Below the pieces are notes generated by a model. The model was not told where the DNA came from, ran no database searches, and saw nothing but the letters and a program-made list of their open reading frames with translations. This document shows, piece after piece, positions 439-26,754 of a stretch of 26,754 nt of DNA; position 1 is the stretch's first letter; every line of letters begins with the position of its first letter. The DNA comes from a virus. Where the stretch lies: positions 1 through 26,754 of the IMG/VR virus record IMGVR_UViG_3300038491_000059, one strand, 5' to 3'. Both the position numbers and the translations under genes were made by a program.

Positions 439-718
439 GATTTGCTAGCACTACTGCTTTTTTTTTCTGTACACCTCGTAACTTTTTTACCTTCTTCTTT
501 TTGTTTTTCTCTGTCTCTGTACTTAAGTCGGCGCGGCGCTGTATGCCACCCAATACTTTAGGATTTCTGGCATCTCCAGGAGCGTATGAGTCAGATGAAT
601 TAATATTACCATCCGGGTCAAACCCACCTGCAGAGCCACCTACAGTATTACTAGTAACCATATCTTCATGTAAATAGTATAAAAATATATGTTCAAATTT
701 ACTACTTGATTTTGACAT
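413..718 (-). CDS. Small late protein with basic C-terminus, function unknown
   Basis: I chose the internal ATG at 718 (protein starts MSKSSSKFEHIF) over the longer frame from 754, because a perfect late box (TATAAATA on the minus strand, 724-731) sits 5 nt before it. The product is about 101 residues: a short hydrophobic/aromatic N-terminus, a Gly/Asp/Ser-rich middle with YAPGDARNPK, GGIQRR, then a Lys-rich tail (NKKKKVKKLRG, KKKAVV). It resembles small late proteins of marine T4-like phages that carry similar 'APGDAR-P' segments, but I cannot name it. The late promoter argues for a virion or assembly role. Its 3' end overlaps the GIY-YIG gene. Confidence 0.7.
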   Translation of the reverse strand: MSKSSSKFEHIFLYYLHEDMVTSNTVGGSAGGFDPDGNINSSDSYAPGDARNPKVLGGIQRRADLSTETEKNKKKKVKKLRGVQKKKAVVLANHDDKEQSN

Positions 719-739
719 ATAAGTATTTATATTATATAT
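706..739 (+). promoter_or_regulatory. Sigma70-like promoter of uvsY
   Basis: TTGATT at 706-711, 16 bp spacer, TATATT at 728-733, then 6 nt to the ATG at 740. The same geometry recurs upstream of gp55, queC, uvsX and gp41. The expected start of transcription is at the ATG. The -10 overlaps the late box of the opposite strand (724-731). Confidence 0.7.
719..731 (-). promoter_or_regulatory. Late promoter, TATAAATA box 5 nt before ATG
   Basis: The minus strand reads TATAAATA at 731-724, identical to the T4 gp55-dependent late consensus, followed by 5 nt and the ATG at 718. T4 late transcripts start about 5-6 nt after this box, so the mRNA should begin at or next to the start codon. There is no room for a Shine-Dalgarno site. 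The box overlaps the -10 of the divergent uvsY promoter. Confidence 0.85.
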
Positions 740-1135
740 ATGGAACTTCTTCAAAGATATATTAAAGAGGTTAGTGCAGATTTAGTAATTGATGATTTTA
801 ATCTCAAAAATGTACAACTTAAACTACCTGCAACAAAACATTTTTGGGTAGCTAGACTAATCGAAGCTAAAATCGAGAAGGAATCTCTCATTAAAACAAA
901 AAAGTCTAGCAAAAAGGCTATCATAAAGGATGTAATATACGCCGCACCAGTTAAAATATCACAAGCTGCAGCAGAACAAGCGGCTGAGCGCCATGATACG
1001 ATCCTATCTATTACTAATAAAATTAGAGAGTATGATTTAGTAATTATGTATCTTGAAAAGGTTGAAAAGGTTTTACACCAAATGACATGGGACTGTAAAA
1101 ATATTATAGAAATTAATAGGCTTGAGCAATTATGA
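740..1135 (+). CDS. uvsY: UvsY-like recombination mediator
   Basis: 131 residues, close to the 137 of T4 UvsY. It is rich in charged residues and predicted helical, with a Lys-rich middle (KTKKSSKKAIIKD) and a helical C-terminus. In T4, UvsY loads the UvsX recombinase on gp32-coated single-stranded DNA. The sequence match is weak by eye. The call rests largely on size, charge pattern and its place directly upstream of uvsW, the T4 order. The stop codon overlaps the uvsW start (ATGA), so the two genes are translationally coupled. No Shine-Dalgarno site precedes the ATG. Confidence 0.75.
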   Translation: MELLQRYIKEVSADLVIDDFNLKNVQLKLPATKHFWVARLIEAKIEKESLIKTKKSSKKAIIKDVIYAAPVKISQAAAEQAAERHDTILSITNKIREYDLVIMYLEKVEKVLHQMTWDCKNIIEINRLEQL

Positions 1136-2565
1136 TATTATTTGATTATATCAAAAATACAAATAGACTTGTTGTTAATTGTGAAGATGATAATATTTTT
1201 AATCAAATACGAGAGCACTTTAGTGTTAAAAATGATGATGCTAAATTTGCAAGACGGTTTAACAAGTTTGCTCCAAAGAGAAAATATGTTATAACACCAA
1301 ATGGCACATGTGAGTTAGGACTATATTGGGATATACGCAAGTTTTTGCGGAGTAACCAGATCAATATAGATATACAGGTAACTGATAGTCTAGAAAAGGT
1401 AATTAACATTGGGGTGCCTGGTGTTATTTACAACAATTTTAAGTTTAACTTACGTGATTACCAGCTAGATGTAGTAGAACGTGCATTAAAGTTAGGTAGA
1501 GGTACATGTATATTAGGTACAGGAGCTGGTAAGACGTTTACAACTGCAGCTTTAATTGAAAATTTCTATAGAAAATCGCCGGATATAGATACTTTTAAGT
1601 GTCTAGTTATTGTACCTGACCTAGGCCTAGTCGAACAGACATATAAAGAGTTTATAGAGTGTGGATCCACCTATAAACTTACTAGGTGGACTGGTAGTAT
1701 TGATCCAGACCTTACTGCAAACGTCATTATTGCAAATAATGGTATTATTCAAAGTAGATTTGATAAGAGTGATTGGATTAAATATATAGATTTATTAATA
1801 GTTGACGAGTGTCATAAAATAACAGCAGCATCGAAATTAGCTAAGATAGTTAAGCAGATTAAAACACAGCATAAATTTGGGTTTACTGGTACATTATCTG
1901 AAAACTTGCTCAATCAATGGGCTGTTATAGGAAGATTAGGACCTATTATATATGAAAAGAATAGTTATGAGCTAAGACAAGCAGATCATCTTGTTAATGT
2001 ATCAGTTAAAATCTTAAACATAAAGTATAACGCACCACTTCGCTATATAACTGACAATAAATATAAAGAAGAGCTAGATTTTATATATGACTCACCCGGT
2101 CGTAATGAACTTATACTTAAACTATGTAGTAAGTTGAGTAATAATATACTGCTCTTAGTAAATCATATAAGACATGGTGATATTTTAGAACAATATCTCT
2201 CAAATATAAAGAATAAACAGGTATTTTTTATAAGAGGTGATGTAGGGGTAGATGAACGAGAAAAGATTAAAGAAATTATGGAGACTAATTCAAATGTTGT
2301 TTGTATTGCCATTAGTGCAATATTTTCAACAGGGGTTAATATTAAAAATCTGCATAATATTATATTTACCGCCGGTGGAAAGTCATTTATCCGAACAGTT
2401 CAATCAATTGGCCGAGGCCTTAGAAAACATGATACTAAAGAGGAGCTAATAATTTTAGATATATGTGATGATCTAATATATGGTATTAAACATAATACAA
2501 AACGAAAAGAAATTTATGATAAAGAAAAAATACCATACACAGAGACAACTATTAGTGTTTTATAA
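1132..2565 (+). CDS. uvsW: UvsW, superfamily 2 DNA/RNA helicase
   Basis: 477 residues (T4 UvsW is about 500). Helicase motifs are in order: Walker A GTGAGKT at 129-135, DECH box at 225-228, FTGT motif III at 251-254, and motif VI QSIGRGLR at 424-431. The N-terminal ~100 residues match the small UvsW-specific domain before the RYQ-type Q motif (LRDYQLD at about 107-113). In T4 the enzyme unwinds R-loops and branch-migrates recombination intermediates, turning off origin-dependent replication late. It starts inside the uvsY stop codon, so the two genes form one operon. Confidence 0.95.
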   Translation: MILFDYIKNTNRLVVNCEDDNIFNQIREHFSVKNDDAKFARRFNKFAPKRKYVITPNGTCELGLYWDIRKFLRSNQINIDIQVTDSLEKVINIGVPGVIYNNFKFNLRDYQLDVVERALKLGRGTCILGTGAGKTFTTAALIENFYRKSPDIDTFKCLVIVPDLGLVEQTYKEFIECGSTYKLTRWTGSIDPDLTANVIIANNGIIQSRFDKSDWIKYIDLLIVDECHKITAASKLAKIVKQIKTQHKFGFTGTLSENLLNQWAVIGRLGPIIYEKNSYELRQADHLVNVSVKILNIKYNAPLRYITDNKYKEELDFIYDSPGRNELILKLCSKLSNNILLLVNHIRHGDILEQYLSNIKNKQVFFIRGDVGVDEREKIKEIMETNSNVVCIAISAIFSTGVNIKNLHNIIFTAGGKSFIRTVQSIGRGLRKHDTKEELIILDICDDLIYGIKHNTKRKEIYDKEKIPYTETTISVL

Positions 2566-2566
2566 C

Positions 2567-2600
2567 TTGTTTTTAATCAAACATATACTATAATAGTATA
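2567..2600 (+). promoter_or_regulatory. Sigma70-like promoter of gene 55
   Basis: TTGTTT at 2567-2572, 16 bp spacer, perfect TATAAT at 2589-2594, then AGTATA and the ATG at 2601. There is no ribosome binding site between the -10 box and the ATG, so the transcript is probably leaderless. Confidence 0.75.
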
Positions 2601-3032
2601 ATGTCCAAGGAAAAAGAAGAATATTATATTCAACCTAAGGTCTTTAAGGAGTCGTTACGCGCTTATTATGACACAGATAACTTAACTGATGATCTAGCGG
2701 AAAATATTAAAAAAATTGCATATGGTTTGAGTTATAATTCATCATTTATAAATTATACATATAAAGATGACATGATAGGGGATGCACTTATTAAAATGTA
2801 TTCCGCTTTAAAGTTTAAAAAATATCGGTTTGAAACAGGTTCGAACCCCTTTTCGTACTTTACAACAATTGCATACCATGCTTTTATCAACCGTATTAAG
2901 AAAGAGAAAAAGCACCACGAAGCTATTTGCAATTATAAAGAAAAGATTTATGAAGAATATATGTCTGACCCAAATAACACATGCGGATATATATATGTAA
3001 AGCCAATAGATGATGATTCCGACGATTACTAA
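2601..3032 (+). CDS. 55: gp55, late-transcription sigma factor
   Basis: 143 residues, shorter than T4 gp55 (185). The region DDMIGDALIKMYSAL to about residue 105 matches the sigma region-2-like core of gp55, including FETGSNPFSYFTTIAYHAF (about 77-95) and a basic RIKKEKKHH stretch. gp55 directs host RNA polymerase to TATAAATA late promoters; several such boxes occur in this window. The C-terminus is acidic (PIDDDSDDY). I do not see an obvious hydrophobic sliding-clamp-binding tail of the T4 type, although this region is poorly conserved. It overlaps gene 47 by 23 nt. Confidence 0.9.
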   Translation: MSKEKEEYYIQPKVFKESLRAYYDTDNLTDDLAENIKKIAYGLSYNSSFINYTYKDDMIGDALIKMYSALKFKKYRFETGSNPFSYFTTIAYHAFINRIKKEKKHHEAICNYKEKIYEEYMSDPNNTCGYIYVKPIDDDSDDY

Positions 3033-4077
3033 GCCTAGAGTAGCTATTATATCTGATTTACATCTCGGCGTACATGCAAATAGTTTGGAATGGCATAAAA
3101 ATGCTATAGAGTGGGCAAATTGGTTTAAGGTAGAGTGTTTATCCAATAATATAGTAGATATTATTTTTTGTGGTGATTGGCACCATAACAGAAGTGAGAT
3201 ATCTGTAAGCACATTACAGGTATCAGCTGATATTTTAGATATATTATCTGAATTTAATCTAATTATGATTATAGGTAATCATGATATATACTATAAATAC
3301 AGAACTGATGTCAATTCCCTATCTGTTTTTAGGAATAGAAAGAATGTAACAATCTTGGATAGGTATCAAACTGTTGAAACATTTAATAAAAAGATATCTT
3401 TCTGCCCATGGAATACATCTATATCTGAAATAGAACAGAGTGATATAATATTTGGTCATTTTGAGATTGAAACATTTAAAATGAACGCATTTAAGGTGTG
3501 TGAAGAGGGTATTAAAATAAAGGAGCTCCTCAAAAGGTCGGATTTAATTATTTCCGGGCATTTCCACACAAGACATGAAAAGAACTTTGGGACAGGTACT
3601 ATCTTATATGTAGGTAACCCATTTCAGATGGATTTTGGTGATACAGAGAACCAGAAAGGTTATTATATACTAGATATAACCACTAATAAGTATGATTTTG
3701 TGCCAAACAATGTATCATCTAGGTATAAAAAGGTTAATTTAAGTTGTTTAGTTAAAGAAGAAACAATTACACCTAACATTATTAATATTATATCTAATAA
3801 TCTAGTTAAGTTGAAGATTGATATGAATATATCACAGGAAGACATGGATATACTGTTAGCTGTGTTGTATAAGCTTAACCCCGAGTCATTGACCGTTGAT
3901 TATGACATCAATTATAATAGATTATTAAATGATACAGCAGATGTTGATGATCTGTCAGGTATCGATGTAGAACAAGCTATTCAAGAGTTTGTAAAGGTGC
4001 TTGATTTAGATAATAAGAATGATATTATAGAATATACATTAGATCTCTATGAAAAAAGTAAATTTCAAGCGAATTAG
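3010..4077 (+). CDS. 47: gp47, SbcD/Mre11-type recombination nuclease subunit
   Basis: 355 residues (T4 gp47 is 339). Calcineurin-like phosphoesterase motifs are all present: SDLHLG at 15-20, GDWHHN at 55-60, GNHDIY at 89-94, FGHFEI at about 148-153 and GHFHTR at 183-188. With gp46 it forms the Mre11/Rad50-like complex that resects double-strand ends for recombination-dependent replication. Tandem ATG codons at 3010 and 3013 give the likely start, inside the end of gene 55. The 3' end overlaps gene 46 by 29 nt, so the three genes are coupled. Confidence 0.95.
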   Translation: MMIPTITKPRVAIISDLHLGVHANSLEWHKNAIEWANWFKVECLSNNIVDIIFCGDWHHNRSEISVSTLQVSADILDILSEFNLIMIIGNHDIYYKYRTDVNSLSVFRNRKNVTILDRYQTVETFNKKISFCPWNTSISEIEQSDIIFGHFEIETFKMNAFKVCEEGIKIKELLKRSDLIISGHFHTRHEKNFGTGTILYVGNPFQMDFGDTENQKGYYILDITTNKYDFVPNNVSSRYKKVNLSCLVKEETITPNIINIISNNLVKLKIDMNISQEDMDILLAVLYKLNPESLTVDYDINYNRLLNDTADVDDLSGIDVEQAIQEFVKVLDLDNKNDIIEYTLDLYEKSKFQAN

Positions 4078-5854: not shown

Positions 5855-5868
5855 AATAAATAACATCG
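5855..5868 (+). promoter_or_regulatory. Late-promoter-like box before glycosyltransferase
   Basis: AATAAATA at 5855-5862 differs from the TATAAATA consensus only at the first base and lies 6 nt before the ATG at 5869. It occupies the 14-nt gap after gene 46. Position and sequence support late expression, but in AT-rich DNA a one-mismatch match is only moderate evidence. Confidence 0.5.
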
Positions 5869-7098
5869 ATGCTTTCACCTCAACCCTTCTCACAACCCTT
5901 TGCGCAACCCTTTGCATCACCGTTCCCGAGAACGGGTCCTGGATTTTCATCACAACGAAAAAATAACGCGCCCATGCCTCGAGAAATGTCGCTGCCTAGA
6001 TATATTAACTATTTGGCTGACCTAAGTGGTTGTGGCCACTGGCGTGTGCTATGGCCAGAGCAAGTTATTAACGCGACCGGTCGAGGAATTTCTCACTCTA
6101 TAACATCGATGGTAACTGATCCAAGGTTTTATCAAAATGTTAAGGTAGTTAAACTGCAGAGACAAGCATCATCTGTTCAGAAAAAATTTGTTGAATTTCT
6201 CAAAAAGATACAACCTGATTATGGGTTTAAATTGATGTATGAAGTGGATGATGTTATCTTTAGGGAAGAAATACCTGATTATAATAAGTTTAAGTTTGCA
6301 TTTGATAGTGAAGAAGTTCGAAATAACTGTATTGATATTATTAATATGGTTGATGAAGTTACTGTTACTTGTGATTTCATGCGAAGGTTATATTTAGACA
6401 AAACATCGCAGAAGAATATAACAGTTATCCCCAACTTTGTACCAGATTTTTGGATGGGACATTTATACAATGGTAAGGAAGTTGTGCAGCAGTTCGATAT
6501 AAATAAGAAGAAGCCAAGAATTTTATATACAGGGTCTGGAGCCCATTATGATGTAGAAAATAAGACTGGTGGTGAGGATGATTTTTCAGGCGTCCGTGAT
6601 TTTGTTAGAAAGACTGTTGATAAGTATCAGTGGGTGTTTGTTGGCGCTTTTCCTCCCCAGTTAGCTGATCTAGTTAAGCAAAATAAAATTGAATTCTATC
6701 CATGGCAAAATTTACTAAACTATCCTCGTGTAATTAGAAATCTAAATGTGCAGCTTATGGTAGCCCCCTTACAGGTTAATAATTTTAATAAAGCTAAATC
6801 AGATATTAAGTTTATTGAAGCATGCACTTTAGGTATTCCGTGTTTGTGTCAAGATATGGAGACATATAGTAACGCACCACCATCACTTAAGTTTAGTAAT
6901 AGTGAAGAATTTGGTGATAAAATTGATACTATACTAAAGTGGAAAAACAGAAGTAAGTATTATAAAAATGTAGAAGCTCTACATCAAATTGGTGCTGGTA
7001 GAATGCTTGAAAAAGAGTCAAATATTGGTGCCATTATGGAATCGTTAAACACACCATATGACTCACCTGATAGAAAATACGCCGTAGAGTGGAATTAA
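5869..7098 (+). CDS. GT4-like glycosyltransferase with Pro/Phe-rich N-terminus
   Basis: 409 residues. After a low-complexity N-terminus with repeated QPF/SPF units (residues 1-25), the protein has a GT-B type layout. There is an N-terminal domain with YEVDDVIF (about 125-132) and VIPNFVP (about 187-193), then ILYTGSGAHYD, and a donor-binding C-terminal motif KFIEACTLGIPCL near 318-330, as in GT4 enzymes. The acceptor and sugar cannot be told. It sits between gene 46 and gene 43, where classical T4 has other genes, and has a late-like box directly upstream, unlike its early neighbours. This suggests action on virion or cell-surface glycans rather than replication; that is inference. Confidence 0.8.
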   Translation: MLSPQPFSQPFAQPFASPFPRTGPGFSSQRKNNAPMPREMSLPRYINYLADLSGCGHWRVLWPEQVINATGRGISHSITSMVTDPRFYQNVKVVKLQRQASSVQKKFVEFLKKIQPDYGFKLMYEVDDVIFREEIPDYNKFKFAFDSEEVRNNCIDIINMVDEVTVTCDFMRRLYLDKTSQKNITVIPNFVPDFWMGHLYNGKEVVQQFDINKKKPRILYTGSGAHYDVENKTGGEDDFSGVRDFVRKTVDKYQWVFVGAFPPQLADLVKQNKIEFYPWQNLLNYPRVIRNLNVQLMVAPLQVNNFNKAKSDIKFIEACTLGIPCLCQDMETYSNAPPSLKFSNSEEFGDKIDTILKWKNRSKYYKNVEALHQIGAGRMLEKESNIGAIMESLNTPYDSPDRKYAVEWN

Positions 7099-7123: not shown

Positions 7124-7135
7124 TATAATCTATAT
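7124..7135 (+). promoter_or_regulatory. Promoter -10 box directly upstream of gene 43
   Basis: Perfect TATAAT at 7124-7129, 6 nt before the GTG at 7136. A -35 is less clear: TTGTAG at 7099-7104 leaves a 19-bp spacer. The spacing from the -10 to the start matches the other leaderless promoters in the window and supports GTG as the true start. Confidence 0.6.
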
Positions 7136-9700
7136 GTGGCTTATAGAAATGCAATTTATGATGGACGTGAAGGTGTAGTTAAATTATTTTGCTGGGATGA
7201 GGATGGTAATCGTATTGTTACAACTACCTCTCATGAGCCTTACCTCTATGTTGAAAATCCAACCGGGGATAAGGTATCTATTTTTGGTACAGCAGTTAAA
7301 AAGAAGAGCTTTCAGAATGGGTATCTAAAGTCAAGATTTTTGAAGGATTCTGGCGTTAAGAGAATTTTTGAAAATATGCCACCCGTACAGCAATTCCTAT
7401 TAGATGTATATTGGAAGGATAACGAAAAAGAAGACTTCAGTCAATTCCCACTAAAGTGCTGTTTTCTAGATATTGAAACATTCTCGGTTGATACTTTCCC
7501 TGATATTGACAATCCAACTCATACAATTAATGTCATTACATGTTATGATAACTTTAGTAAAAAGTTTTTTACCTTTGGGTTAAAACCATATACAGGTACG
7601 TTACAAGATAATGTTGTATATGTTCATTGTAAGGATGAAAAGGAATTGCTAATTAAATTTATTGAGTATATGGAATCAGACTACCCTGATATATTATCAG
7701 GGTGGAACTCTGAAGGTTTTGATATTCCATATATTATTAATAGAATGGAGAGAATTCTTGGTGAGGATTATGTTAAGAGGTTATCACCTGTTGGTAATGT
7801 ATATTTTAGATTAATGAGAGGCCAGTTTGGTCAGGAAAAGAAAAGGTATTTTATTACTGGTATTGCCTGCCTAGACTTCCTAGATGTTTATAAGAGGTTT
7901 TGTCTTAAGTTGAGAGAATCATATAAGTTAGATGCGATTGGTGGTGTAGAGCTCGGTGAAACCAAAGTGGATTATGAGGGTATGTCGCTAGCAGAACTAT
8001 CAGAGAAAGATTGGAATAAATTTATTGACTACAACATTCAAGATGTTAATCTACTAGTTAAGTTAGAAGAGAAACTTCAATATATACCACTCTTGAGAAT
8101 GTTATCATATGTTGGGTTAACCAACCTCGAGGGTGCTATGGGTACAATTCAGGTTATTAATGGTGCGTTATGTGTTAGAGCTCGAAATAGGGGTGAGATT
8201 ATATCTACGTTTGTTCGAAATGAGGGTGAAGGTAAAAATCCGGGTGCGTATGTAGCTGAACCTAAATCTGGATTTAAAAATCATATTGTATCATTTGATG
8301 CAAATTCACTATATCCAAATGTGATGATATCACTTAATACATCTCCGGAGACTAAAGTTGGTAAGGTTGATATTATTGATGATAAAGTTATAATTCAGCA
8401 TGTTTCTGGTAAGCAGTTTAGTTTGGATAAACCTGCCTTCGCAAAATTTCTTAAAAAGGAAGAATGTTCATTATCCAAAGCTGGTTTTATGTTTACTCAA
8501 AAAAAGAAAGGTATCATACCTGAATTTTTGGAATACTATTATAATCAACGTGTTGGTATTAAGAAGAAATTATTTATAGCAAAGCAGAAGCTTGAAAAAG
8601 ATTCAACTAATACCAATCTTAAGTATGAGGTTGAGAGACTTAATACCTCACAGATGGTAATTAAAATACTTATTAATTCCTGTTATGGTTATATGGGAAA
8701 CAAAAAGGCCCCTATTGGGGATGATGATATTGCATCATCTGTAACATTAACTGGTCAAGCAGTTATTAAGAAATCAAATGAGTTTATTAAAGAGTATATT
8801 AAGTCACGCGTACCGTCTCTTAGTGATCATCAACTTGAAGAGAATATCATTTACAACGATACAGATAGTTCGTACATCTCTATATCACCTATTATTGAAA
8901 GTGGTTTAATTAAGTTTTGGGATGGTGATCAAGTTCATCAAGAGACCTATGACGAAATTCAAAAAATTGAAGATTATCTTAATAAGAATATGGAAGGTTG
9001 GGCGAAGAAAGCCATCCTCACTAAAAATAGTAGGTTTGTATTTAAGAGAGAGTGTATAGCTGATACTGGAGTGTTCTTACAGAAGAAGAGATATGTTATG
9101 CATATCTTAGACGATGAAGGTATTAAGAAACAAAAGTTTAAGTATACTGGTGTTGAAGTAGTTCGAACTACAATGCCGGATGCAATTAAGCCATATGCTA
9201 AAAGGATCATTGAGACAATGCTCTCTACACAGTCATTGAAGGAGACAAATAAAGTACTAAATGATACCTATGAAATATTTAAAACCTTAGCCCCAGAGCA
9301 AATAGCTTTTGTGATGGGCGTGAAGGGGTATGAAAAATATGCTGTTCAGTGTAAGCAATTTAAAACTTGCAAGGGAATGCCTATACATGTTAAGTCTGCA
9401 TATTTTTATAACATGATGTTAGATATGCTAAATACAGGCAATAAGTATGAGAAGCTTAGTTCTGGTGATAAGGTAAGATATTTATACCTACAGCAACCAA
9501 ATAAATATAGGTTAGATACTATTGGATTTAAATACGAATTTCCAGCTGAGTTGGGTGAACTATTTAAAGTTGACTATGAAAAAATGTTTGAAAAAATTCT
9601 CTTTCAAGGTATCGAGAGGTTCTATAATAACGTTTCATGGGCTATTCGTCGACCAACAGCGAATGTTCAAACAGAACTATTTGATATTTTTGGCTCATAG
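7136..9700 (+). CDS. 43: gp43, family B DNA polymerase
   Basis: 854 residues (T4 gp43 is 898), GTG start. 3'-5' exonuclease motifs: DIE at 112-114, SGWNSEGFDIPYI at 188-200 and YNIQDV at 299-304. Polymerase motifs: A, SFDANSLYP (Asp388); B, INSCYGYMG (about 513-521); C, DTDS at 575-578. The last residues, QTELFDIFGS, resemble the LFDMF-type sliding-clamp-binding tail of RB69/T4 polymerases. All catalytic acids needed for synthesis and proofreading are visible, so the enzyme should be active. It is the replicative polymerase of the phage. Confidence 0.97.
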   Translation: MAYRNAIYDGREGVVKLFCWDEDGNRIVTTTSHEPYLYVENPTGDKVSIFGTAVKKKSFQNGYLKSRFLKDSGVKRIFENMPPVQQFLLDVYWKDNEKEDFSQFPLKCCFLDIETFSVDTFPDIDNPTHTINVITCYDNFSKKFFTFGLKPYTGTLQDNVVYVHCKDEKELLIKFIEYMESDYPDILSGWNSEGFDIPYIINRMERILGEDYVKRLSPVGNVYFRLMRGQFGQEKKRYFITGIACLDFLDVYKRFCLKLRESYKLDAIGGVELGETKVDYEGMSLAELSEKDWNKFIDYNIQDVNLLVKLEEKLQYIPLLRMLSYVGLTNLEGAMGTIQVINGALCVRARNRGEIISTFVRNEGEGKNPGAYVAEPKSGFKNHIVSFDANSLYPNVMISLNTSPETKVGKVDIIDDKVIIQHVSGKQFSLDKPAFAKFLKKEECSLSKAGFMFTQKKKGIIPEFLEYYYNQRVGIKKKLFIAKQKLEKDSTNTNLKYEVERLNTSQMVIKILINSCYGYMGNKKAPIGDDDIASSVTLTGQAVIKKSNEFIKEYIKSRVPSLSDHQLEENIIYNDTDSSYISISPIIESGLIKFWDGDQVHQETYDEIQKIEDYLNKNMEGWAKKAILTKNSRFVFKRECIADTGVFLQKKRYVMHILDDEGIKKQKFKYTGVEVVRTTMPDAIKPYAKRIIETMLSTQSLKETNKVLNDTYEIFKTLAPEQIAFVMGVKGYEKYAVQCKQFKTCKGMPIHVKSAYFYNMMLDMLNTGNKYEKLSSGDKVRYLYLQQPNKYRLDTIGFKYEFPAELGELFKVDYEKMFEKILFQGIERFYNNVSWAIRRPTANVQTELFDIFGS

Positions 9701-19556: not shown

Positions 19557-19591
19557 TTGTAAAGTAAGGATCTTAATATATAATATAGTAT
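19557..19591 (+). promoter_or_regulatory. Sigma70-like promoter of uvsX
   Basis: TTGTAA at 19557-19562, 16 bp spacer, perfect TATAAT at 19579-19584, then 7 nt to the ATG at 19592. There is no Shine-Dalgarno site in the short gap. It lies just after the hsp20 terminator. Confidence 0.75.
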
Positions 19592-20737
19592 ATGGATAAA
19601 GATATTGCAAGTGCGTTGGACGAAATTGATACTGTTAACCCCTTTGCAACATATCTAAGTGATAGTACACTTAGTAGAGTAGGTGGGTGGGTTGATACTG
19701 GGTCATATGTATTAAATGCCATAATCTCCGGATCTCTTCATGGTGGTATACCTAAAGGTAGGGTAACTATGCTAGCTGGTGAGTCTATGACTGGTAAATC
19801 CCTGTTTGTTATGAAGATATTAGCTGCAGCTCAAAAAAGTGGGTTAATACCAGTTATTTTTGATACGGAAAACGCGATTGACCCGGAAGGTGCTGAAAGA
19901 CTTGGGTTAGATGTTAGCAAAGTTAAATATGTTCCTTGTATAAGTACAGAACAGACTAGAAATGCATTATATAAGTTCCTTACATCAGTTAAAGAGAAGG
20001 GATTGGAGGGTAAATTTATCGTTGCTATTGATTCCTTAGGAAATTTACAGTCAGAACTGTCATTATCACGAATGAGTAAAGATAATACAGCAGCTGATAT
20101 GGGTACAAATGCTCGAGCTATGAAATCTCTCATGCAGACATGTACTAATTTAGGAGCTGTCACACAAACAACTATTATATGCACTAACCATGTGTATGAT
20201 AATCCTGCAGCTCTGTTCCCATCAATCGAGAAAAATATGCCTGGTGGTAAGTCATGTGTATATCTACCTTCAGTTACCGTTCAACTGGCTAGAAAGCCAA
20301 TGAAAGCTGACGGTGGCAAAACAATGGATGGTGAAACTGCTGTAGCGCAAAAGAGTTATGCTGGCATTATCATTAGAGCTCTAACTCGAAAGAATCGATT
20401 TATTAAACAGTATCTAGAGGGTGAAATGTATCTATCATTCGCATCCGGTTTAGATAGATACTATGGCCTAATTGACTTAGCAGTTGGTTTAGGCGCCGTC
20501 ATTCAAACTGGGGCAACCTACCAACTTGAAGATGGTAAGAAGTTAGGATATTACAAGCAGTTTAGGAAAAATACTGATCTATGGGAAAATACCATCCTAC
20601 CTATTGTAGAGGCTAGAATGAAGGATGAGTGGAACTATTCAAACAAAGAAGAAGAACCACCTGATGAAGTAGCAGAAACGATAGTTGATCCAGTGTCGAC
20701 CTCACTTAAGGATATATTAGAATTAAAGGAAAAATAA
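19592..20737 (+). CDS. uvsX: UvsX, RecA-like recombinase
   Basis: 381 residues (T4 UvsX is about 390). The N-terminal segment ends in WVDTGSYVLNAIISGSLHGG, typical of UvsX. Walker A is GESMTGKS at 63-70, a DTENAIDPEGAERLG segment follows, and Walker B is FIVAIDSLGNL at 142-152. NMPGGKSCVYLPSVTVQLARK covers the DNA-binding/RecA core end. It catalyses strand exchange for recombination-dependent replication and works with UvsY (740-1135) and gp46/47 in the same window. The Asp/Glu-rich C-terminal tail ends SLKDILELKEK. Confidence 0.96.
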   Translation: MDKDIASALDEIDTVNPFATYLSDSTLSRVGGWVDTGSYVLNAIISGSLHGGIPKGRVTMLAGESMTGKSLFVMKILAAAQKSGLIPVIFDTENAIDPEGAERLGLDVSKVKYVPCISTEQTRNALYKFLTSVKEKGLEGKFIVAIDSLGNLQSELSLSRMSKDNTAADMGTNARAMKSLMQTCTNLGAVTQTTIICTNHVYDNPAALFPSIEKNMPGGKSCVYLPSVTVQLARKPMKADGGKTMDGETAVAQKSYAGIIIRALTRKNRFIKQYLEGEMYLSFASGLDRYYGLIDLAVGLGAVIQTGATYQLEDGKKLGYYKQFRKNTDLWENTILPIVEARMKDEWNYSNKEEEPPDEVAETIVDPVSTSLKDILELKEK

Positions 20738-20770: not shown

Positions 20771-20828
20771 CTATAGGTTATTGTGTTGCATCTTTGCTGT
20801 GAGATATTTGATAACATCTGCAGCCTCA
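20771..20828 (-). other. Possible +1 frameshift extension of late protein
   Basis: The upstream gene ends ATG ATT TGA. Slipping one base at ATT TGA G (or removing one T of the TTT run) continues in frame as EAADVIKYLTAKM then QHNNL to TAG at 20773-20771, 18 more residues. The ATT TGA site resembles the CTT TGA +1 site of prfB, but no strong upstream Shine-Dalgarno-like stimulator is visible. It could equally be a homopolymer error. Confidence 0.35.
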
Positions 20829-21131
20829 AATCATGTTCTCGTCGCGGTAGCCATGTTCATCTTTGACGATTTGCATGAATGTCTCAAATTGATGTTTACC
20901 TAGGTTCATTAAAAAAACTAACCCAGCATCTCCAAGATTATCGACAAATACTTCAGCCTTTTTAACAAACTCGTCGAATTCACCTAGTGATTCATCTTCA
21001 GCTGGGTGTACATCACCTTCAGCCCCCATATGTGGAGGAGCCTCCTCTTGCTCGTAACTCTCGTTAAGAACTTTACCGGTCAAAACCTTAGTGTATTGCT
21101 CTGCCATTAAATCAAACTCATTACGCTTCAT
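20826..21131 (-). CDS. Small late protein, probably virion-associated
   Basis: About 101 residues from the ATG at 21131 (MKRNEFDLMAEQYTKVL). The frame opens at 21173, but a late box CATAAATA at 21144-21137 lies exactly 5 nt before 21131. The N-terminus MAEQYTKVLTGKVLNESY, an acidic Glu/Pro-rich linker (EQEEAPPHMGAEGDVHPAED) and a helical C-terminus (FDEFVKKAEVFVDNL, then FLMNLGKHQFETFMQIVKDEH) resemble small structural or scaffold-related proteins of marine T4-like phages. I cannot name it. The NESY motif also occurs in the repeat protein at 22849-24597. The C-terminus may extend by frameshift. Confidence 0.65.
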   Translation of the reverse strand: MKRNEFDLMAEQYTKVLTGKVLNESYEQEEAPPHMGAEGDVHPAEDESLGEFDEFVKKAEVFVDNLGDAGLVFLMNLGKHQFETFMQIVKDEHGYRDENMI

Positions 21132-21144
21132 AATATTATTTATG
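21132..21144 (-). promoter_or_regulatory. Late promoter CATAAATA, 5 nt before ATG
   Basis: The minus strand reads CATAAATA at 21144-21137, one mismatch from TATAAATA, with the same 5-nt spacing to ATG as the boxes at 724-731 and 24603-24610. It is divergent from the queC promoter. Confidence 0.7.
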
Positions 21145-21151
21145 ATACTAG

Positions 21152-21185
21152 TTGAATTTATATCAAAAGACATTATAATTATTTC
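21152..21185 (+). promoter_or_regulatory. Sigma70-like promoter of queC
   Basis: TTGAAT at 21152-21157, 16 bp spacer, perfect TATAAT at 21174-21179, then TATTTC and the ATG at 21186. Both spacings match the gene 55 promoter exactly. Confidence 0.8.
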
Positions 21186-21929
21186 ATGAATAAACGACTC
21201 CTATTATCTTTATCAGGTGGTGCAGACAGTGTTGTCCTCTTGCATATGGCTGTTGATCGTGGATATGAATATATTCATACTATATCGTTTGACTATGGGC
21301 AGAGACATAAGAGAGAGCTTGATTGTATACAGAAGCAGTTTAATGCTGTCAATGAAAAACATAGCGTTAAACTGTTTAACACTATTATTGATGCGAACTT
21401 TCTTAAACAGATATGCCATACATCATCTCTCACCAATACTGATATCGAAAACCCCAATATCAGTAAGATTGCAGGAGATGCGCAGCCAGTATCATATGTA
21501 CCATTCAGAAATCAGATGTTTAATACCATAGCTTGTGCATATGCAGAGAGTAATGGTATCTCAGATGTTTGGTATGGTGCTGCACAAGTTGATTCCTTAG
21601 CTGGTTATCATGATGGCTCGCGAGAGCATATTGATGCATTTAATCAGTTGATAGCTCTTAATAGAGAACATAGGATAACGTTATCTGCACCACTATTAAC
21701 AATGTCTAAAGCTGATATTATCTTAGAGGGTGTAAGACTAGGTGTCAACTTCGCAGACACATGGACATGTTACAGTAACAGAGAAGATGGTTTAGCTGAT
21801 GCTACAACACCATCAAGTAGCATGCGCTTAGCTGGTTTTATGCAAGCTGGTTATGTAGATCCTATCAAATATGTGCAGCAAAAGGCCCTAAATGATATAT
21901 ACGAACAAAAAGGGTGTAAAGAGATCTAA
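21186..21929 (+). CDS. queC: QueC-like 7-cyano-7-deazaguanine synthase
   Basis: 247 residues. The PP-loop SGGADS at 10-15, SFDYGQRHKREL near 34-45, SYVPFRNQMF near 103-112, GAAQVDSLAGYHD near 131-143 and TMSKADIILEGVRLGV near 172-187 are QueC signatures. QueC makes preQ0 from 7-carboxy-7-deazaguanine, ammonia and ATP. The usual C-terminal zinc site (C-x8-C-x2-C-x2-C) is broken: after Cys195 the positions read ADATTPSSS, with no other Cys. The enzyme is therefore divergent. In phages it normally serves 7-deazaguanine DNA modification that blocks restriction. Other pathway genes (folE, queD, queE, dpdA) are not in the window. Confidence 0.9.
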   Translation: MNKRLLLSLSGGADSVVLLHMAVDRGYEYIHTISFDYGQRHKRELDCIQKQFNAVNEKHSVKLFNTIIDANFLKQICHTSSLTNTDIENPNISKIAGDAQPVSYVPFRNQMFNTIACAYAESNGISDVWYGAAQVDSLAGYHDGSREHIDAFNQLIALNREHRITLSAPLLTMSKADIILEGVRLGVNFADTWTCYSNREDGLADATTPSSSMRLAGFMQAGYVDPIKYVQQKALNDIYEQKGCKEI

Positions 21930-21932
21930 TTA

Positions 21933-22403: not shown

Positions 22404-22419
22404 AACAATAATATTTAGT
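22404..22419 (-). promoter_or_regulatory. Late promoter ACTAAATA before membrane protein
   Basis: The minus strand reads ACTAAATA at 22419-22412, 8 nt before the ATG at 22403. It is identical in sequence and spacing to the hsp20 box at 19031-19038. Confidence 0.6.
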
Positions 22420-22835
22420 TAGTTCCTACCATTACCCCTGCTAATTAATATATCTATCTTAGTCTTAATCGAGCTTACATCCTCTTTAATACTACCTATA
22501 TCTTCCTTTATAGGTGTAGTTTCTTCCAATATAGCGAGCTTTAATTCAGGCTCTCTTATATGTAGTCCGGTATTACTCGAATGTTTCGACACTAAAGAGT
22601 CCATTCTGGTTATTATCGAAGCCACCCCTTTATGATGTGGTTCATATTTATGTTTTACAATATCATCTACAATTACAAATGTTGACCATAGGATAGTAAT
22701 AGAGCCTATAGCAGCCCCAATAACGGTCACCCATCCTAATATTGTTGTAGGGGCAGCAAACTTTATTCGTTTCCTGGAAGCTATTTCAGCTATAGTTGCA
22801 CCAACAACTAACTTTATATGATCTTCATCGGACAT
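22419..22835 (-). CDS. Single-pass membrane protein with coiled coil
   Basis: 138 residues. A cytoplasm-like N-terminus with RKR is followed by one long hydrophobic segment (about 29-54, TTILGWVTVIGAAIGSITIL onward). The soluble C-terminal part ends in heptad-like repeats (IKEDIGSIKEDVSSIKTKID). The layout fits a holin- or spanin-like protein or a membrane anchor, but no family is recognised. It starts 13 nt after the stop of the large repeat protein, so it is probably on the same late transcript. Confidence 0.7.
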   Translation of the reverse strand: MSDEDHIKLVVGATIAEIASRKRIKFAAPTTILGWVTVIGAAIGSITILWSTFVIVDDIVKHKYEPHHKGVASIITRMDSLVSKHSSNTGLHIREPELKLAILEETTPIKEDIGSIKEDVSSIKTKIDILISRGNGRN

Positions 22836-22848
22836 GACTTTTAATTAA

Positions 22849-24597
22849 TTATAGCCCGTAACTTCTGAGTTCTGCAAGCTGACCTATAGTTTTTGGTTTC
22901 ATCTTGTCCTTAAATAATATAAACTTTTCTTTCGGTTTAAGTAGCCGGTCCTTATGAGCCTGATCTGATAGATAAGATAAGGTGTAAGATTCGTTAACTG
23001 TATTCTCGTCCTCACCTCTTAGATGGCCAAGTTTAGCCTTAATAATACGGTACTTAGTGTTAAGTCTAGTTGCGGTTGTGTAATCTTTCCTATCAGTATA
23101 ATATTCAATCTCTTTTCTCAACTCATGAAGCTTGAGCTCAAGCGCATCCGCTCGGTCTTCAGCCGGCTCCTCCAGTCTTTTTAGAAGCCTATCTTTAATA
23201 GCTCTATTATTAGCTATACGTGCCTGGGGATCATCACCATATTGCTGCTCAGTTAAGTAATGTGCAGTATAAGATTCATTAACTGTTTCCTCATCCTTAC
23301 CTCTTAGATTTCCAAGTTTAGCCTTAATAATACGGTACTTGAAGTTAAGTCTATCTGCGGTTGTGTAATCTTTCTTATCACTATAATATTCAATCTCCTT
23401 TCTCAACTCATGAAGCTTAAGCTCAAGCGCAGCAACCCGATCTTCAACCGGTCCCTCTAGTCTTTTTAGAAGCCTATCTTTAATAGCTCTATTATTAGCT
23501 ATACGTGCCTGGGGATCATCACCATATTGCTGCTCAGTTAAGTAATGTGCAGTATAAGACTCTGTAACTGTTGTTTTATCTAGATAATGAGCTACGTCAG
23601 CATCTAACTCTTCTGCCTCCTCTGCCTCCTCTGCATCAAACTTATCAGGTTGTTGATCTACTACCGGCGGTTTAGTTGATGTAGAGTATGGGGTGCGATC
23701 TTGTTGAGCTCTATTTGCAGCCGGCCCAACTGGTTGAATATTAACATTACCTGGCTCGGTAATATATATTTCAAACCTATCTGTAAAACGCTCTATATCT
23801 TGTTGAAGTAAGTCATACAGCTTTTGAACACCAATTTCTTTTACTTTATCTGCTAACGCTCTAGCATTTGCAGATTCCGAATCCGAAGCAAAAGAGAAGG
23901 ATATTAGATTATATCCATCCTTACTTACAATATCAACACCATCTTCATCCGCAAACGCCTCAACCTTATTTCTAATCTTAACCGCATCGTTTGGGTCAAT
24001 TACTTGAATTTCAACAATATACCTTTCATCAAAATATTCGCCGTATAAATCATCTACAACCTCACCAATTTCACCATCAATTTCAGCAACCTTGGATGTT
24101 ATAGGTGGTTCAACTTCCTCTTCAGGCTCTTGTTTATAATTTTTACCCATTATATTTGTCAGCTGTACATCTAAATACCTTGTTGGATTTTGTTTAATAT
24201 CATCCAACACACTATCAATAAGCGGGGGGGTTTCAATCTCCACACCAGTTTCATCTACTTCAGGATGACTATAAAATAGTCTATTAAAAACCTCAGGGTC
24301 TGCTTTTTGAATTTCATTTGCTATAAAGGTTGAAGATGTGGCCTTTTTGCGTAAGATATCAAACAGTTCATCTGTTAGATAATCTCTATGGTATAAAGCT
24401 CTTAGCAAAATTTGGTTTTTAGTTCTAGATGACGCTCCTACTCCTTGACCTGTTTTTTGATTTTTATAATTTTTAAGTATAGGGGTTAATCCGGATTTTT
24501 TAATAGCACCCTTCCATGCACTGGAAGAAGAACTAGTTGCTTCTTCTAAAATATTAATTCGATTAAAAAGATCGTTGAATTTTGCATATGTTTGCAT
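22849..24597 (-). CDS. Repeat-containing late protein, probably structural
   Basis: 582 residues, no recognised family. The N-terminus (MQTYAKFNDLFNRINILEEA) resembles head or neck proteins of marine T4-like phages. The middle has an alternating ferredoxin-like segment (about 191-265), then a disordered Pro/Gln/Glu region (286-335). The C-terminal third holds two 95-residue tandem repeats (344-438 and 439-533) plus a truncated third (from 534). Each begins V-[TN]-ESYT and contains a long charged helix (LELKLHELRKEIEYY). A perfect late box lies 5 nt before ATG. Possible roles are scaffold, internal head protein or fibre-associated protein. Confidence 0.75.
   Translation of the reverse strand: MQTYAKFNDLFNRINILEEATSSSSSAWKGAIKKSGLTPILKNYKNQKTGQGVGASSRTKNQILLRALYHRDYLTDELFDILRKKATSSTFIANEIQKADPEVFNRLFYSHPEVDETGVEIETPPLIDSVLDDIKQNPTRYLDVQLTNIMGKNYKQEPEEEVEPPITSKVAEIDGEIGEVVDDLYGEYFDERYIVEIQVIDPNDAVKIRNKVEAFADEDGVDIVSKDGYNLISFSFASDSESANARALADKVKEIGVQKLYDLLQQDIERFTDRFEIYITEPGNVNIQPVGPAANRAQQDRTPYSTSTKPPVVDQQPDKFDAEEAEEAEELDADVAHYLDKTTVTESYTAHYLTEQQYGDDPQARIANNRAIKDRLLKRLEGPVEDRVAALELKLHELRKEIEYYSDKKDYTTADRLNFKYRIIKAKLGNLRGKDEETVNESYTAHYLTEQQYGDDPQARIANNRAIKDRLLKRLEEPAEDRADALELKLHELRKEIEYYTDRKDYTTATRLNTKYRIIKAKLGHLRGEDENTVNESYTLSYLSDQAHKDRLLKPKEKFILFKDKMKPKTIGQLAELRSYGL
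22930..23568 (-). repeat. Tandem 285-bp in-frame repeat (2 copies plus partial)
   Basis: Copy 1 spans 23568-23284, copy 2 spans 23283-22999, and a partial third starts at 22998. The period is exactly 95 codons. Copies are highly alike at the DNA level as well as in protein (for example the TTGCTGCTCAGTTAAGTAAT block is in both), so the duplication is recent or kept uniform by recombination. Confidence 0.92.
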
Positions 24598-24613
24598 ATA
24601 ATTATTTATATAT
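24575..24613 (+). promoter_or_regulatory. Sigma70-like promoter of HhH gene
   Basis: TTGAAT at 24575-24580, 16 bp spacer, perfect TATAAT at 24597-24602, then 11 nt to the ATG at 24614. The promoter lies partly inside the divergent late gene and its -10 abuts the late box of the other strand. Confidence 0.6.
24598..24610 (-). promoter_or_regulatory. Late promoter TATAAATA, 5 nt before ATG
   Basis: The minus strand reads TATAAATA at 24610-24603, a perfect consensus, with 5 nt to the ATG at 24597. It lies inside the 16-nt gap between two divergent genes. Confidence 0.85.
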
Positions 24614-24958
24614 ATGGGACTTACTTATCAAAATTTTAATGAAATAGGTTATGAAGAGCTATGTAAATTGCCGGGAGTTGGTAAAGCAACTGCAGAGAGA
24701 ATTATTGCTCAAAGACCATTCCTTAGAGATGCAGATTTATCTAAGGTTAGAGGATTAGGTAAAGGTACTTTAAAAAAACTCGGTATAGAAAATGTTAAAA
24801 AGAGACAGAAAGGTATTGAAAAATGGTTATACCATCCATATGAAGGTGATGATGTGGAATACCCACATCACTGCTTCGCGTACGATACTAGAAATAGTCA
24901 ACTAGACTTCTTCTGGCGTATACCTCAAAACTACCGTAAATATTATGGGGTAGATTAA
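24614..24958 (+). CDS. Helix-hairpin-helix DNA-binding protein (ComEA-like)
   Basis: 114 residues. The first 60 form a double HhH domain: IGYEELCKLPGVGKATAERI with the hairpin LPGVGKA, then VRGLGKGTLKKLGIENV with hairpin VRGLGKG. This is the ComEA/PsbU-type non-specific DNA-binding fold. The C-terminal part is aromatic and basic (HHCFAYDTRN, DFFWRIPQNYRKYYG) and not recognised. It probably binds DNA during replication, recombination or packaging. It is early by its promoter. Confidence 0.8.
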   Translation: MGLTYQNFNEIGYEELCKLPGVGKATAERIIAQRPFLRDADLSKVRGLGKGTLKKLGIENVKKRQKGIEKWLYHPYEGDDVEYPHHCFAYDTRNSQLDFFWRIPQNYRKYYGVD

Positions 24959-25020
24959 TTTAAACTTATAACTATATACAATATATTAGTTAGGTTGTTA
25001 GTTATATATAGAAACACATT

Positions 25021-25083
25021 ATGAAATTACGTAATCAAAATAGGAAGGGGGCTTGTTATTTGCGCAATTTTTGGCTCATTTGA
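25021..25083 (+). other. Short ORF overlapping amidotransferase start
   Basis: An ATG at 25021 opens a 20-codon frame (MKLRNQNRKGACY...) that ends at TGA 25081-25083. It is in the +1 frame relative to the amidotransferase. Removing one G from the G5 run at 25047-25051 would join it to the amidotransferase as a 13-residue extension before the catalytic Cys. It is either a chance leader ORF or the true start disturbed by an indel. Confidence 0.3.
25042..25057 (+). promoter_or_regulatory. Strong Shine-Dalgarno site before a non-ATG start
   Basis: AGGAAGGGGG at 25042-25051 is the only strong ribosome binding site seen ahead of a gene here. Its AGGAAGG core ends 9 nt before the ATT at 25058, ideal spacing for that codon. 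A weak TTGTTA (24995-25000), 16 bp, CATTAT (25017-25022) could start a transcript near 25029 that includes this site. Confidence 0.5.
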
Positions 25084-25729
25084 ACCTTCAATGTTTGAAG
25101 TATTATACCAAGCAAATAAATTGCGTGGTAATTTTGCCAGTAGTGTTATTGCAATTGGTCATGAAGATACATATATTCAAAAATTTGAAGGAGATATTCC
25201 TAAGTCGTTTGAATATGTAGATGATATGATATATATTACCGGTCATGTACAAGCACCAACATCATGTAAACGTGAGTGGTCATATGATACATCACATCCG
25301 TTTGAGTCTATTTCATGGACAATATGTCATAATGGCGTTATAACAAATGAACAGCATCTTCGACAGACATACCTACCATATATAGAAAATCCTGTTGATT
25401 CTTCGTTAATAGCTAACCTACTACAATTGTTTGTAGAAAATCAGTCAGCATCTAATGATAATATAGACCCAGTAAATGCTATTAAATCAACACTAACGTT
25501 GCTAGAAGGTACATTTGCATTATCTATTATTGATTCTGATACAGGGGAGTTTTATATTGCTCGTTGTGGGTCTATTCTACATTATGACGATAAAGGCAAT
25601 TTTTCAACTATACCTGGTAAAGGGTTTACAGAGTTGCCAGAAGGTATAATCATGCGACTTGATAAAGATCATCTTAAATGGGTGCAAGTTGCAACTTTTG
25701 AGACTCAATCACCATTTCTTTTTATATGA
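25058..25729 (+). CDS. Class II glutamine amidotransferase, probable ATT start
   Basis: About 223 residues from ATT 25058. The next codon is the expected nucleophile: CAIFGSFEPSMFEVLYQANK, as in class II amidotransferases that start Met-Cys. Other family sites follow: LRGNFASS, GHVQAPT (GHTRWAT-like), HPF, ICHNGVITN (oxyanion Asn/Gly region), PVDSSLIANLL and LEGTFALSIID. The first ATG in this frame is at 25091, after the Cys, and would give a dead enzyme. No ATG, GTG or TTG exists upstream before a stop. It releases ammonia from glutamine for a partner. There is no synthetase domain fused, so the partner is separate; QueC (21186) or a sugar enzyme are candidates. ATGA overlap links it to the next glycosyltransferase. 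Confidence 0.8.
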   Translation: MCAIFGSFEPSMFEVLYQANKLRGNFASSVIAIGHEDTYIQKFEGDIPKSFEYVDDMIYITGHVQAPTSCKREWSYDTSHPFESISWTICHNGVITNEQHLRQTYLPYIENPVDSSLIANLLQLFVENQSASNDNIDPVNAIKSTLTLLEGTFALSIIDSDTGEFYIARCGSILHYDDKGNFSTIPGKGFTELPEGIIMRLDKDHLKWVQVATFETQSPFLFI

Positions 25730-26370
25730 GTAAGATATTTTATTTTTCAGCAACTGCAGGGTCAAAACGAGACACCCTACTATACAAAACGACAGATAAA
25801 GAAGTATTTTTTAAGGAAAATAATACCGACTCTTTACAGAAAACATATAACAAGGCAATCGATTTCTGTATAGAAGAGAGTATTGAATACATTGTGATAT
25901 CACATGATGATATTATATTTGAAAATGTTACAGAAAGTAAACTACTGGAAAATTTTGATAGGTACGATATGTTTGGAGTGGCGGGAGCTACTCAATGTAA
26001 ATTTAATAAACCGGCTCTATGGCATTTAATGGGTGGTGGGGTTCAAGGCAGAGCGTTGAGAGGTGCGGTGGCACACATTAATGGTAAGAAGAAAAATATG
26101 ACTGCATTTGGCCCTTACCCATCTCGAGTTGTGGTAGTAGACGGGGTATTCCTCGCAATTAGTAGGAAGGTTTTTGAAAAAATACGATTTGATGAGGATT
26201 GCCCTGCTAAGTTCCACATGTATGACTTGGACTATTCTCTCGCTGCTCATAATGCGGGATTTAAAGTGGGTGTGAGCGATATATTAATTACACATGAGTC
26301 ACCTGGATTAACAAAAACGACTGATGAGTTTAAGAGGGGTGAAGATTGGTTTTTAACAAAGTATAAGTAG
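25726..26370 (+). CDS. GT2-like glycosyltransferase (StrF-domain type)
   Basis: 214 residues. YIVISHDDIIFEN near 55-67 is the GT-A acidic motif. FDRYDMFGVAGAT near 76-88, the W/H-rich middle, VVVVDGVFLAISRKVFEKIRF near 134-154, then FDEDCPAKFHMYDLDYSLAA and ITHESPGLTKT match the Glyco_transf_2_5/StrF-type family. Its ATG overlaps the amidotransferase stop (ATGA), so the two are co-translated and may act in one pathway. Sugar and acceptor are unknown. Confidence 0.8.
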   Translation: MSKIFYFSATAGSKRDTLLYKTTDKEVFFKENNTDSLQKTYNKAIDFCIEESIEYIVISHDDIIFENVTESKLLENFDRYDMFGVAGATQCKFNKPALWHLMGGGVQGRALRGAVAHINGKKKNMTAFGPYPSRVVVVDGVFLAISRKVFEKIRFDEDCPAKFHMYDLDYSLAAHNAGFKVGVSDILITHESPGLTKTTDEFKRGEDWFLTKYK

Positions 26371-26392
26371 TTAATTACTTGGTTAAGGTCAG

Positions 26393-26426
26393 TTGATTTA
26401 CTCTCATATGATAATACACTATATCT
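26393..26426 (+). promoter_or_regulatory. Sigma70-like promoter of gene 41
   Basis: TTGATT at 26393-26398, 16 bp spacer, TACACT at 26415-26420, then ATATCT and the GTG at 26427. The -10 is weaker than TATAAT, but all spacings equal those of the gene 55 and queC promoters. Confidence 0.65.
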
Positions 26427-26754
26427 GTGAGTAAATTAGATCTAGATTGGATGGAGAATGTTCTTATTTTTAAGAGCCTCACCGATAGTGGTTATTTAGC
26501 ATCTATATCGGATGTTGTACAACCAGAATACTTTAAAAACAAAGCAATTGCTGATGTTTTTTCCATAATTAAAGCGTTTGCTGAAAAGAGAAACAAACTA
26601 CCAACTATTACTGAAATTAAATCATATCTTGTTTCAGATGACCAAAAAACAGCCTTCAAAACTTTAGTTCAATCATTCCAAGATTTAGATAAAGTTCTAG
26701 ATAATGATGAATTATATGAAAATACAGAACGATTTCTTAAAGAGAAGGCTGTAT
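26427..26754 (+). CDS. 41: gp41-like replicative helicase, N-terminal part (partial)
   Basis: 109 codons, cut by the window end. The GTG at 26427 is preferred over the in-frame ATG at 26451 because of the promoter spacing. The visible part matches the N-terminal domain of DnaB-type phage helicases: ENVLIFKSLTDSGYLASI, VVQPEYFKNKAIADVFSII and RNKLPTITEIKSYL, as in T4 gp41 ("EYF...FKLIK...PSIN"). The ATPase domain lies beyond the window. Position downstream of uvsX and close to the other replication genes supports the call. Confidence 0.85.
   Translation, partial: MSKLDLDWMENVLIFKSLTDSGYLASISDVVQPEYFKNKAIADVFSIIKAFAEKRNKLPTITEIKSYLVSDDQKTAFKTLVQSFQDLDKVLDNDELYENTERFLKEKAV

Follow-up and report, generated by a model that had tools for sequence, protein, structure and literature searches.

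Sigma70-type and gp55-type promoters set at the start codon point to leaderless gene expression in a clade of T4-like phages

Transcription units that have their own promoter seem, across a clade of uncultured T4-like phages, mostly to begin at the coding sequence itself, and their messages are very likely read without a leader. This conclusion is drawn from the sequence of a 26,754-base phage record of IMG/VR (IMGVR_UViG_3300038491_000059; the whole stretch is called the window here) and of its relatives, in which both host sigma70-type promoters and T4-type late promoters, the latter served by the phage sigma factor gp55, stand directly before start codons. The original prediction, made from the window alone, was that most early genes of this phage are translated from leaderless mRNA; the claim now narrows to genes with their own promoter and widens to late genes. 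Leaderless mRNA and both promoter types are known already, and it is their joint, genome-wide placement in a T4-like clade that is new.

Start-adjacent sigma70 promoters in the window

Six plus-strand genes of the window carry a -10-like hexamer just before the start codon. At uvsY (706..740), TTGATT (706-711) is followed after 16 bp by TATATT (728-733) and 6 nt later by ATG at 740. Gene 55, which encodes the late sigma factor, repeats the design at 2567..2601, with TTGTTT (2567-2572), N16, TATAAT (2589-2594), 6 nt and ATG at 2601, as do queC at 21152..21186 (TTGAAT 21152-21157, N16, TATAAT 21174-21179, 6 nt, ATG 21186) and gene 41 at 26393..26427 (TTGATT 26393-26398, N16, TACACT 26415-26420, 6 nt, GTG 26427). 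At uvsX (19557..19592) the last distance is 7 nt (TTGTAA 19557-19562, N16, TATAAT 19579-19584, ATG 19592). The DNA polymerase gene, gene 43, has TATAAT (7124-7129) 6 nt before GTG at 7136 (7124..7136), with TAGATT instead of a TTG at the 16-bp spacing. All positions and distances originally reported for these genes were correct, including the perfect TATAAT in four of the six (55, 43, queC and uvsX) and the TTGnnn exactly 16 bp upstream in five (55, queC, uvsY, uvsX and 41).

This arrangement was compared with chance at 30 window starts, hand-picked from open reading frames (ORFs) and gene calls, using 2000 dinucleotide-preserving shuffles of the 60-nt upstream regions. The combination TTG-N16-(-10) at -13/-12 occurs at five starts, against a null mean of 0.08 and a maximum of 2, and so the earlier view that the repeated spacing is hard to explain by AT richness holds. 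Exact TATAAT at -13/-12 occurs at four (null mean 0.27), a count reached by 1 of the 2000 shuffles. For queC and gene 41 the originally predicted starts were kept though our gene caller picked an internal ATG; without these two genes the TTG-N16-(-10) count is three, still above the null maximum. The window genes uvsW, 47 and 46 overlap their upstream gene and have no box.

Sigma70-type boxes across the clade

A profile search of viral contigs with the DNA polymerase, gp43, confirmed 146 relatives, and 80, at 53-78% identity, were kept. The family test set comprises six related records (G001, G003 and G006-G009; 31-36% GC) with 628 genes and 120 nt upstream of each; a second set holds 795 genes from the 48 of 78 further loci that are at least 9 kb long. 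The two sets are not independent, as 4 of the loci belong to records used before and orthologues are counted repeatedly. Starts were picked by a home-made caller from codon statistics and start-codon type, ignoring upstream sequence. A sigma70-like site was defined by TTG, a spacer of 15-18, A2 and T6 of the -10, and at least 9 of 12 matches.

In the six records a sigma70-type -10 begins at -12 in 36 genes, where shuffles predict 0.85, at -13 in 11 and at -11 in 12. The count over -15..-11 is 71 (3.6 expected), flanked by 7 at -20..-16 (3.3 expected) and 14 at -10..-6 (3.5 expected), and between -120 and -21 it is at chance level (63 versus 61). Because the sites peak near the start and fall to chance further upstream, detectable sigma70-type sites stand out only beside the start codon. 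Of 66 hits, 50 have a spacer of 16. In the further loci, TTGA peaks at -35/-34 (72 and 67) and -10-like boxes at -13/-12 (100 and 87). The genome-wide enrichment over shuffled sequence that the original prediction implied is thus present in related records, with a caller blind to the upstream region.

The Bacteroidota-type promoter reads TAnnTTTG. Its TTTG tail was not found among the 64 sigma70-class boxes, which are TATAAT-like, with G at no more than 0.03 from -12 to -6. As a separate observation, many upstream regions of gene 43 and gene 41 orthologues (L031-L108) carry GTGGAA instead of TTGA around the -35, perhaps an alternative -35 element.

Late promoters placed the same way

The T4-type late box NATAAATA is set in like manner. 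Of the 628 genes, 69 have it beginning at -13, 21 at -14, 11 at -15 and 6 at -16; in the further loci the counts are 53 at -13, 28 at -16 and 18 at -14. In T4, transcription starts about one helical turn downstream of the late box, -13/-12 being positions inside the box (an extract of PMC2988020); by this geometry, a late box that begins at -13 brings +1 onto the start codon. The placement originally ascribed to early genes is not confined to them, since late promoters share it.

The window contains 17 NATAAATA sites over both strands, 4 of them directly before an accepted gene start, and at -15..-13 a late box is found at 4 of the 30 starts (null mean 0.16, maximum 3). On the minus strand, TATAAATA at 24610-24603 stands 5 nt before ATG 24597 of a 582-aa ORF (24597..24610), and CATAAATA at 21144-21137 stands 5 nt before ATG 21131 (21131..21144), likely the start of an ORF listed as 20826-21173; this 115-aa minus-strand ORF probably begins at 21131, behind its late box, rather than at 21173. 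A further TATAAATA (731-724, minus strand) lies 5 nt before ATG 718 of an ORF divergent from uvsY (718..731) and overlaps the uvsY promoter. The start at 718 was accepted because the late box points to it, which affects the late-box count only; in G006 the gene divergent from uvsY is called, with a late box. On the plus strand, AATAAATA at 5855-5862 precedes by 6 nt the ATG at 5869 of a glycosyltransferase-like gene (5855..5869), whose start the caller put further inside.

Taken together, a strict start-adjacent box of either type is found at 118 of the 298 genes classed as first in their unit. Among genes without one, the TAAATA core still peaks at -12/-11 (18 and 24 versus 1.3 expected), which indicates that the strict classes of 64 sigma70-type and 108 late genes are too small.

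Functional split between the two classes

Proteins behind the two kinds of box differ in function. The sigma70-class scan covered 10 of 18 eligible G006 proteins and returned SSB, UvsX, QueD, QueE, a DNA helicase, an epimerase, one unknown family and three proteins without hits. The late-class scan covered 20 proteins (16 of 30 eligible from G006 and 4 of 15 from G001): tail fibre, sheath, tape measure, tail protein, portal, two head-tail adaptors and two head proteases, together with a DHH phosphoesterase, an epimerase, one unknown family and eight without hits.

This split bears on the idea that the AT-rich hexamers are no promoters at all and reflect base composition alone or an unstructured region for translation initiation. 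The genomes are indeed AT-rich, and genes lacking a strict box also have AT-rich upstream regions in which AATA and TATA are enriched. Composition would nevertheless have to produce a -35 at a fixed 16-bp spacer, survive shuffles that keep dinucleotides and sort early from late functions; moreover, part of the residual AT signal consists of weaker late boxes, the TAAATA peak described above, and the pattern is absent from the T4 stretch that we compared, at 36% GC. We regard this explanation as very improbable.

Position of +1 and start codons

For the 69 late boxes that begin at -13, a pyrimidine precedes the start codon in 68 (57 T and 11 C) and an A in 1. With the late box at -15 or -16 (n = 11 and 6), T is kept at +12 of the box (0.73 and 0.83) and a purine at +13 (0.91 and 0.83), now upstream of the ATG. 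Sigma70 boxes at -14 (n = 7) likewise have T at +11 and a purine at +12 (0.86 each), like boxes at -12. These initiator data mostly, though not wholly, fit a transcription start set by the promoter.

They also speak to the possibility that the boxes are real promoters whose leaders are merely short, with +1 a few nucleotides upstream and a minimal A/U leader devoid of a Shine-Dalgarno (SD) sequence. Late boxes 1-3 nt further out, at -14 to -16, point in this direction, and there the initiator step suggests leaders of 2-3 nt. Against it, the modal position in both classes (36 genes at -12, 69 at -13) sets +1 on the codon, and the pyrimidine before the codon is nearly invariant at the late boxes at -13. 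We consider short leaders unlikely as the general explanation, and leaderless reading remains our preferred one.

Box-adjacent genes start with ATG in 156 cases, GTG in 15 and TTG in 1 of 172. GTG is commoner there than elsewhere (15/172 versus 13/456, p 0.004), these ratios being rough because the caller penalizes GTG and TTG. It could be argued that the start codons are mis-assigned, the real ones lying downstream behind ordinary leaders; the starts are predicted, and at queC and gene 41 the caller did choose internal ATGs. Orthologues, however, are alike just after the box-adjacent start (GTGAGTAA in 10 of the 14 gene 41 rows shown, ATGGA in most of the uvsX rows shown), the starts behind the genome-wide peaks were picked blind to the upstream sequence, and SD cores are scarce in any case. 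Mis-assignment is accordingly the kind of explanation to which we attach next to no probability.

Shine-Dalgarno cores and operon-internal genes

SD cores were scored as GGAG, GAGG or AGGA in -18..-5, with -50..-37 as the control stretch. They occur in 2-9% of genes in the six records versus 2-6% in the control, and in 47 versus 47 of the 795 genes in the further loci; to this extent, at or near background, the expected absence of SD sequences holds. Among genes without a box, cores precede 19 of the 276 internal genes and 15 of the 180 that are first in a unit. The same code returns 25/50 for T4, 46/98 for HTVC008M, 35/86 for Cr30, 31/89 for KVP40, 11/47 for S-PM2, 1/13 for Syn9, 7/34 for P-SSM2, 16/45 for C48C1 and 20/47 for G005.

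Neighbours on the same strand overlap by 1-5 bases in 93 of 499 pairs. Such short overlaps may reflect translational coupling of internal genes, with which they agree without proving it.

Conservation

Conservation was counted over distinct upstream regions, near-identical ones being dropped, and a -10 was accepted if it began at -16 to -9. A sigma70-type box is kept in orthologue upstream regions of gene 55 (18/18), uvsY (17/17), uvsX (23/27) and orf114 (30/36), and the late box of the 582-aa ORF in 2 of 2. For orf98 the box is of late type in 5 of 18, and for orf234 no orthologue was obtained in this comparison.

The uvsY -35 lies across the opening codons of the gene that diverges on the opposite strand; in several relatives this -35, TTGATTCCAT, is the reverse complement of those codons. 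Part of the uvsY conservation may therefore be coding.

Weighing the evidence

Fixed spacing, a -35 at a 16-bp spacer, conservation among diverged orthologues, scant SD cores and the pyrimidine-purine step together give strong support to leaderless messages, or to leaders of 0-3 nt. As first stated, "most" early genes was too strong, since many genes are operon-internal.

Several observations count against our reading. Only 172 of the 628 genes have a strict box, and it is lacking at 180 first genes. The fixed initiator step is not seen with late boxes at -14 (n = 21), nor with sigma70 boxes that begin at -13 (n = 11). Conservation is incomplete: the box is kept in 18/31 upstream regions for gene 43, 9/18 for gene 41, 6/18 for orf98 and 1/21 for queC, whose promoter is thus local. 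One epimerase family occurs in both promoter classes. The branch G002-G004 (the fragments G002 and G004 with G003) retains a weak SD excess, 10/104 versus 2/104 in the control. Finally, the caller that set the gene starts is home-made, and orthologous genes are counted repeatedly.

Comparison with known systems

Nine phage genomes served as controls (T4, P-SSM2, HTVC008M, C48C1, G005, S-PM2, Syn9, KVP40 and Cr30), all partial at 42-100 kb, with only 13 genes for Syn9; with a single late box in the KVP40 stretch and none in that of Cr30, these two are uninformative on late placement. None of these nine partial genomes has a sigma70 start-adjacent peak like that of the clade. The clade shares with T4 the late box TATAAATA/NATAAATA, a gp55 homologue and late structural genes downstream (extracts of PMC2988020 and PMC2984593). 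Placement differs. In the T4 and S-PM2 stretches the late box begins 22-45 nt before the start codon overall: 9 of 10 T4 boxes begin at -36..-32, commonly with an SD leader, and 12 of 12 S-PM2 boxes lie at -27..-45. In the clade, whose mode is -13 and whose SD cores are near background, a leader with an SD sequence between late box and gene, as in the T4 stretch, was not found, and late genes would have no leader.

A further likeness is found in Pelagibacter phage HTVC008M (L030, L135), in which 7 late boxes lie exactly at -13, so that part of its late genes should be leaderless too. Unlike the clade, it has 9 other late boxes elsewhere, several with AGGAG leaders, and no comparable sigma70 start-adjacent peak. 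P-SSM2 has 1 late box at -13, and G005 has 2 at -13 and 5 elsewhere.

Thermus phage P23-45 is reportedly another phage with leaderless transcripts, and to our knowledge the usual known phage cases are single genes. According to a brief remark in one paper, leaderless transcripts are frequent among phages (an extract of PMC5312081). Others searched for T4 late promoters in cyanophages (PMC3037559) or found that prediction of middle and late promoters failed in pelagimyophages (PMC7029224). NATAAATA late promoters are known in T4-like phages (PMC2984593, in part). In the literature searched we recognized no report of leaderless T4-type late promoters, or of a phage clade with both promoter classes at the start codon; extracts of PMC9004378, PMC7403470 and PMC2704228 are silent on the matter.

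Start-adjacent -10 boxes are, likewise, known in bacteria. Extracts of PMC3160421 and PMC12340547 describe leaderless genes with TATAAT/TANNNT about 6-7 bp before the ORF, a placement that the clade shares, and the former reports TA-like signals around -12. Those bacteria also retain an SD-led class, whereas the clade consists of phages, has a clear -35 at a fixed spacer and places a second, unrelated promoter class in the same way. In mycobacteria a 5'-terminal ATG or GTG suffices and TTG does not (PMC4633059, in part), which resembles the ATG and GTG starts, with their single TTG, at box-adjacent genes. The same extract describes leaderless ATG and GTG messages as well translated in mycobacteria and weakly in E. 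coli; leaderless translation was demonstrated there by experiment, and in the clade it is predicted from sequence.

The window and its relatives

By profile, the window encodes uvsY, a UvsW-like helicase, 55, 47, 46, 43, uvsX, queC, the DnaB-like start of 41, Hsp20 and a glycosyltransferase. The product of gene 55 matches phrog_234 (E 8e-23), so that a gp55 late sigma factor is encoded, and gp55 is present in the 4 larger records searched. G001 (IMGVR_UViG_3300038760_000073, 76,845 bases) has a gp43 identical to that of the window and contains the same stretch with 2 bases fewer. In gp43, identity to the best named phages, for the most part cyanophages together with the Kyanoviridae record C48C1, is about 32%.

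Homologues of QueC, QueD and QueE in the clade (L113:14239-16382 in G006, and queC in the window) perhaps form a deazaguanine (queuosine-type) pathway. ARAGORN reports a tmRNA at L117:4252-4661 in G006, its tag of 32 residues ending in LAA; this may be a false call. In the window, the expected N-terminal Cys codon of a GATase-like ORF (25021-25729) lies in frame at 25061, preceded by ATT rather than a usual start; an ATG at 25021 is one frame off across GGAAGGGGG, perhaps reflecting a rare ATT start or an assembly indel.

Possible hosts were sought through two proteins. The gp43 scan of genome contigs yielded no relative, and the QueC scan returned 80 loci of at most 41% identity from many phyla, which says nothing on the host. 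In 6 genomes to which the QueC hits led, the strict pattern TTGA-N18-TATAAT-N6-ATG was absent. In 61 genomes from the phylum of a Neomarinimicrobiota metagenome-assembled genome, TATAAT-N6-ATG seems to be in slight excess over the reversed pattern, judged by eye and unsummed. As a cause on the phage side, a translation factor was considered and rejected: ribosomal protein S21 and IF3_C were unmatched in 10 of 10 records, most of which are fragments.

A model for leaderless expression

Transcription begins about 6-7 nt past the box with the sigma70 enzyme and about 5-6 nt past it with the gp55 enzyme. We propose that early and middle genes (replication, recombination, gp55 and queuosine) would use the host sigma70-type arrangement TTGa-N16-TATAAT-N6-[A/G]TG, and late, mainly structural genes the T4-type gp55 promoter in the form NATAAATA-N5-[A/G]TG. 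RNA polymerase starting 6 nt past the -10, or 5 nt past the late box, would place +1 at the start codon's first base or no more than about 3 nt away. This would leave no room for an SD leader, and initiation would be leaderless, at a 5'-terminal AUG or GUG. Operon-internal genes, mostly without SD cores as well, would perhaps be served by coupling through short overlaps. From the arrangement of boxes and starts we thus infer the real 5' ends, the behavior of the ribosomes and a host able to handle leaderless mRNA.

More tentatively, in a suggestion that may well prove wrong, the clade could run all its own-promoter genes leaderlessly, early and late, structural genes included, either because host ribosomes favor SD-free mRNA or because the phage shifts ribosomes to leaderless messages and so sets its own apart from the leadered ones of the host.

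Overall, a host promoter class (sigma70) and an unrelated phage class (gp55) have come to stand at one fixed distance from the start codon, and SD signals stay near background across whole contigs. If our reading is correct, leaderless translation would be the default for own-promoter genes in a T4-like clade; the boxes would supply a rule for correcting gene starts and would point to a host with unusual translation initiation. The pelagiphage HTVC008M, which is cultured and carries both designs, offers a system in which leaderless late genes can be tested.

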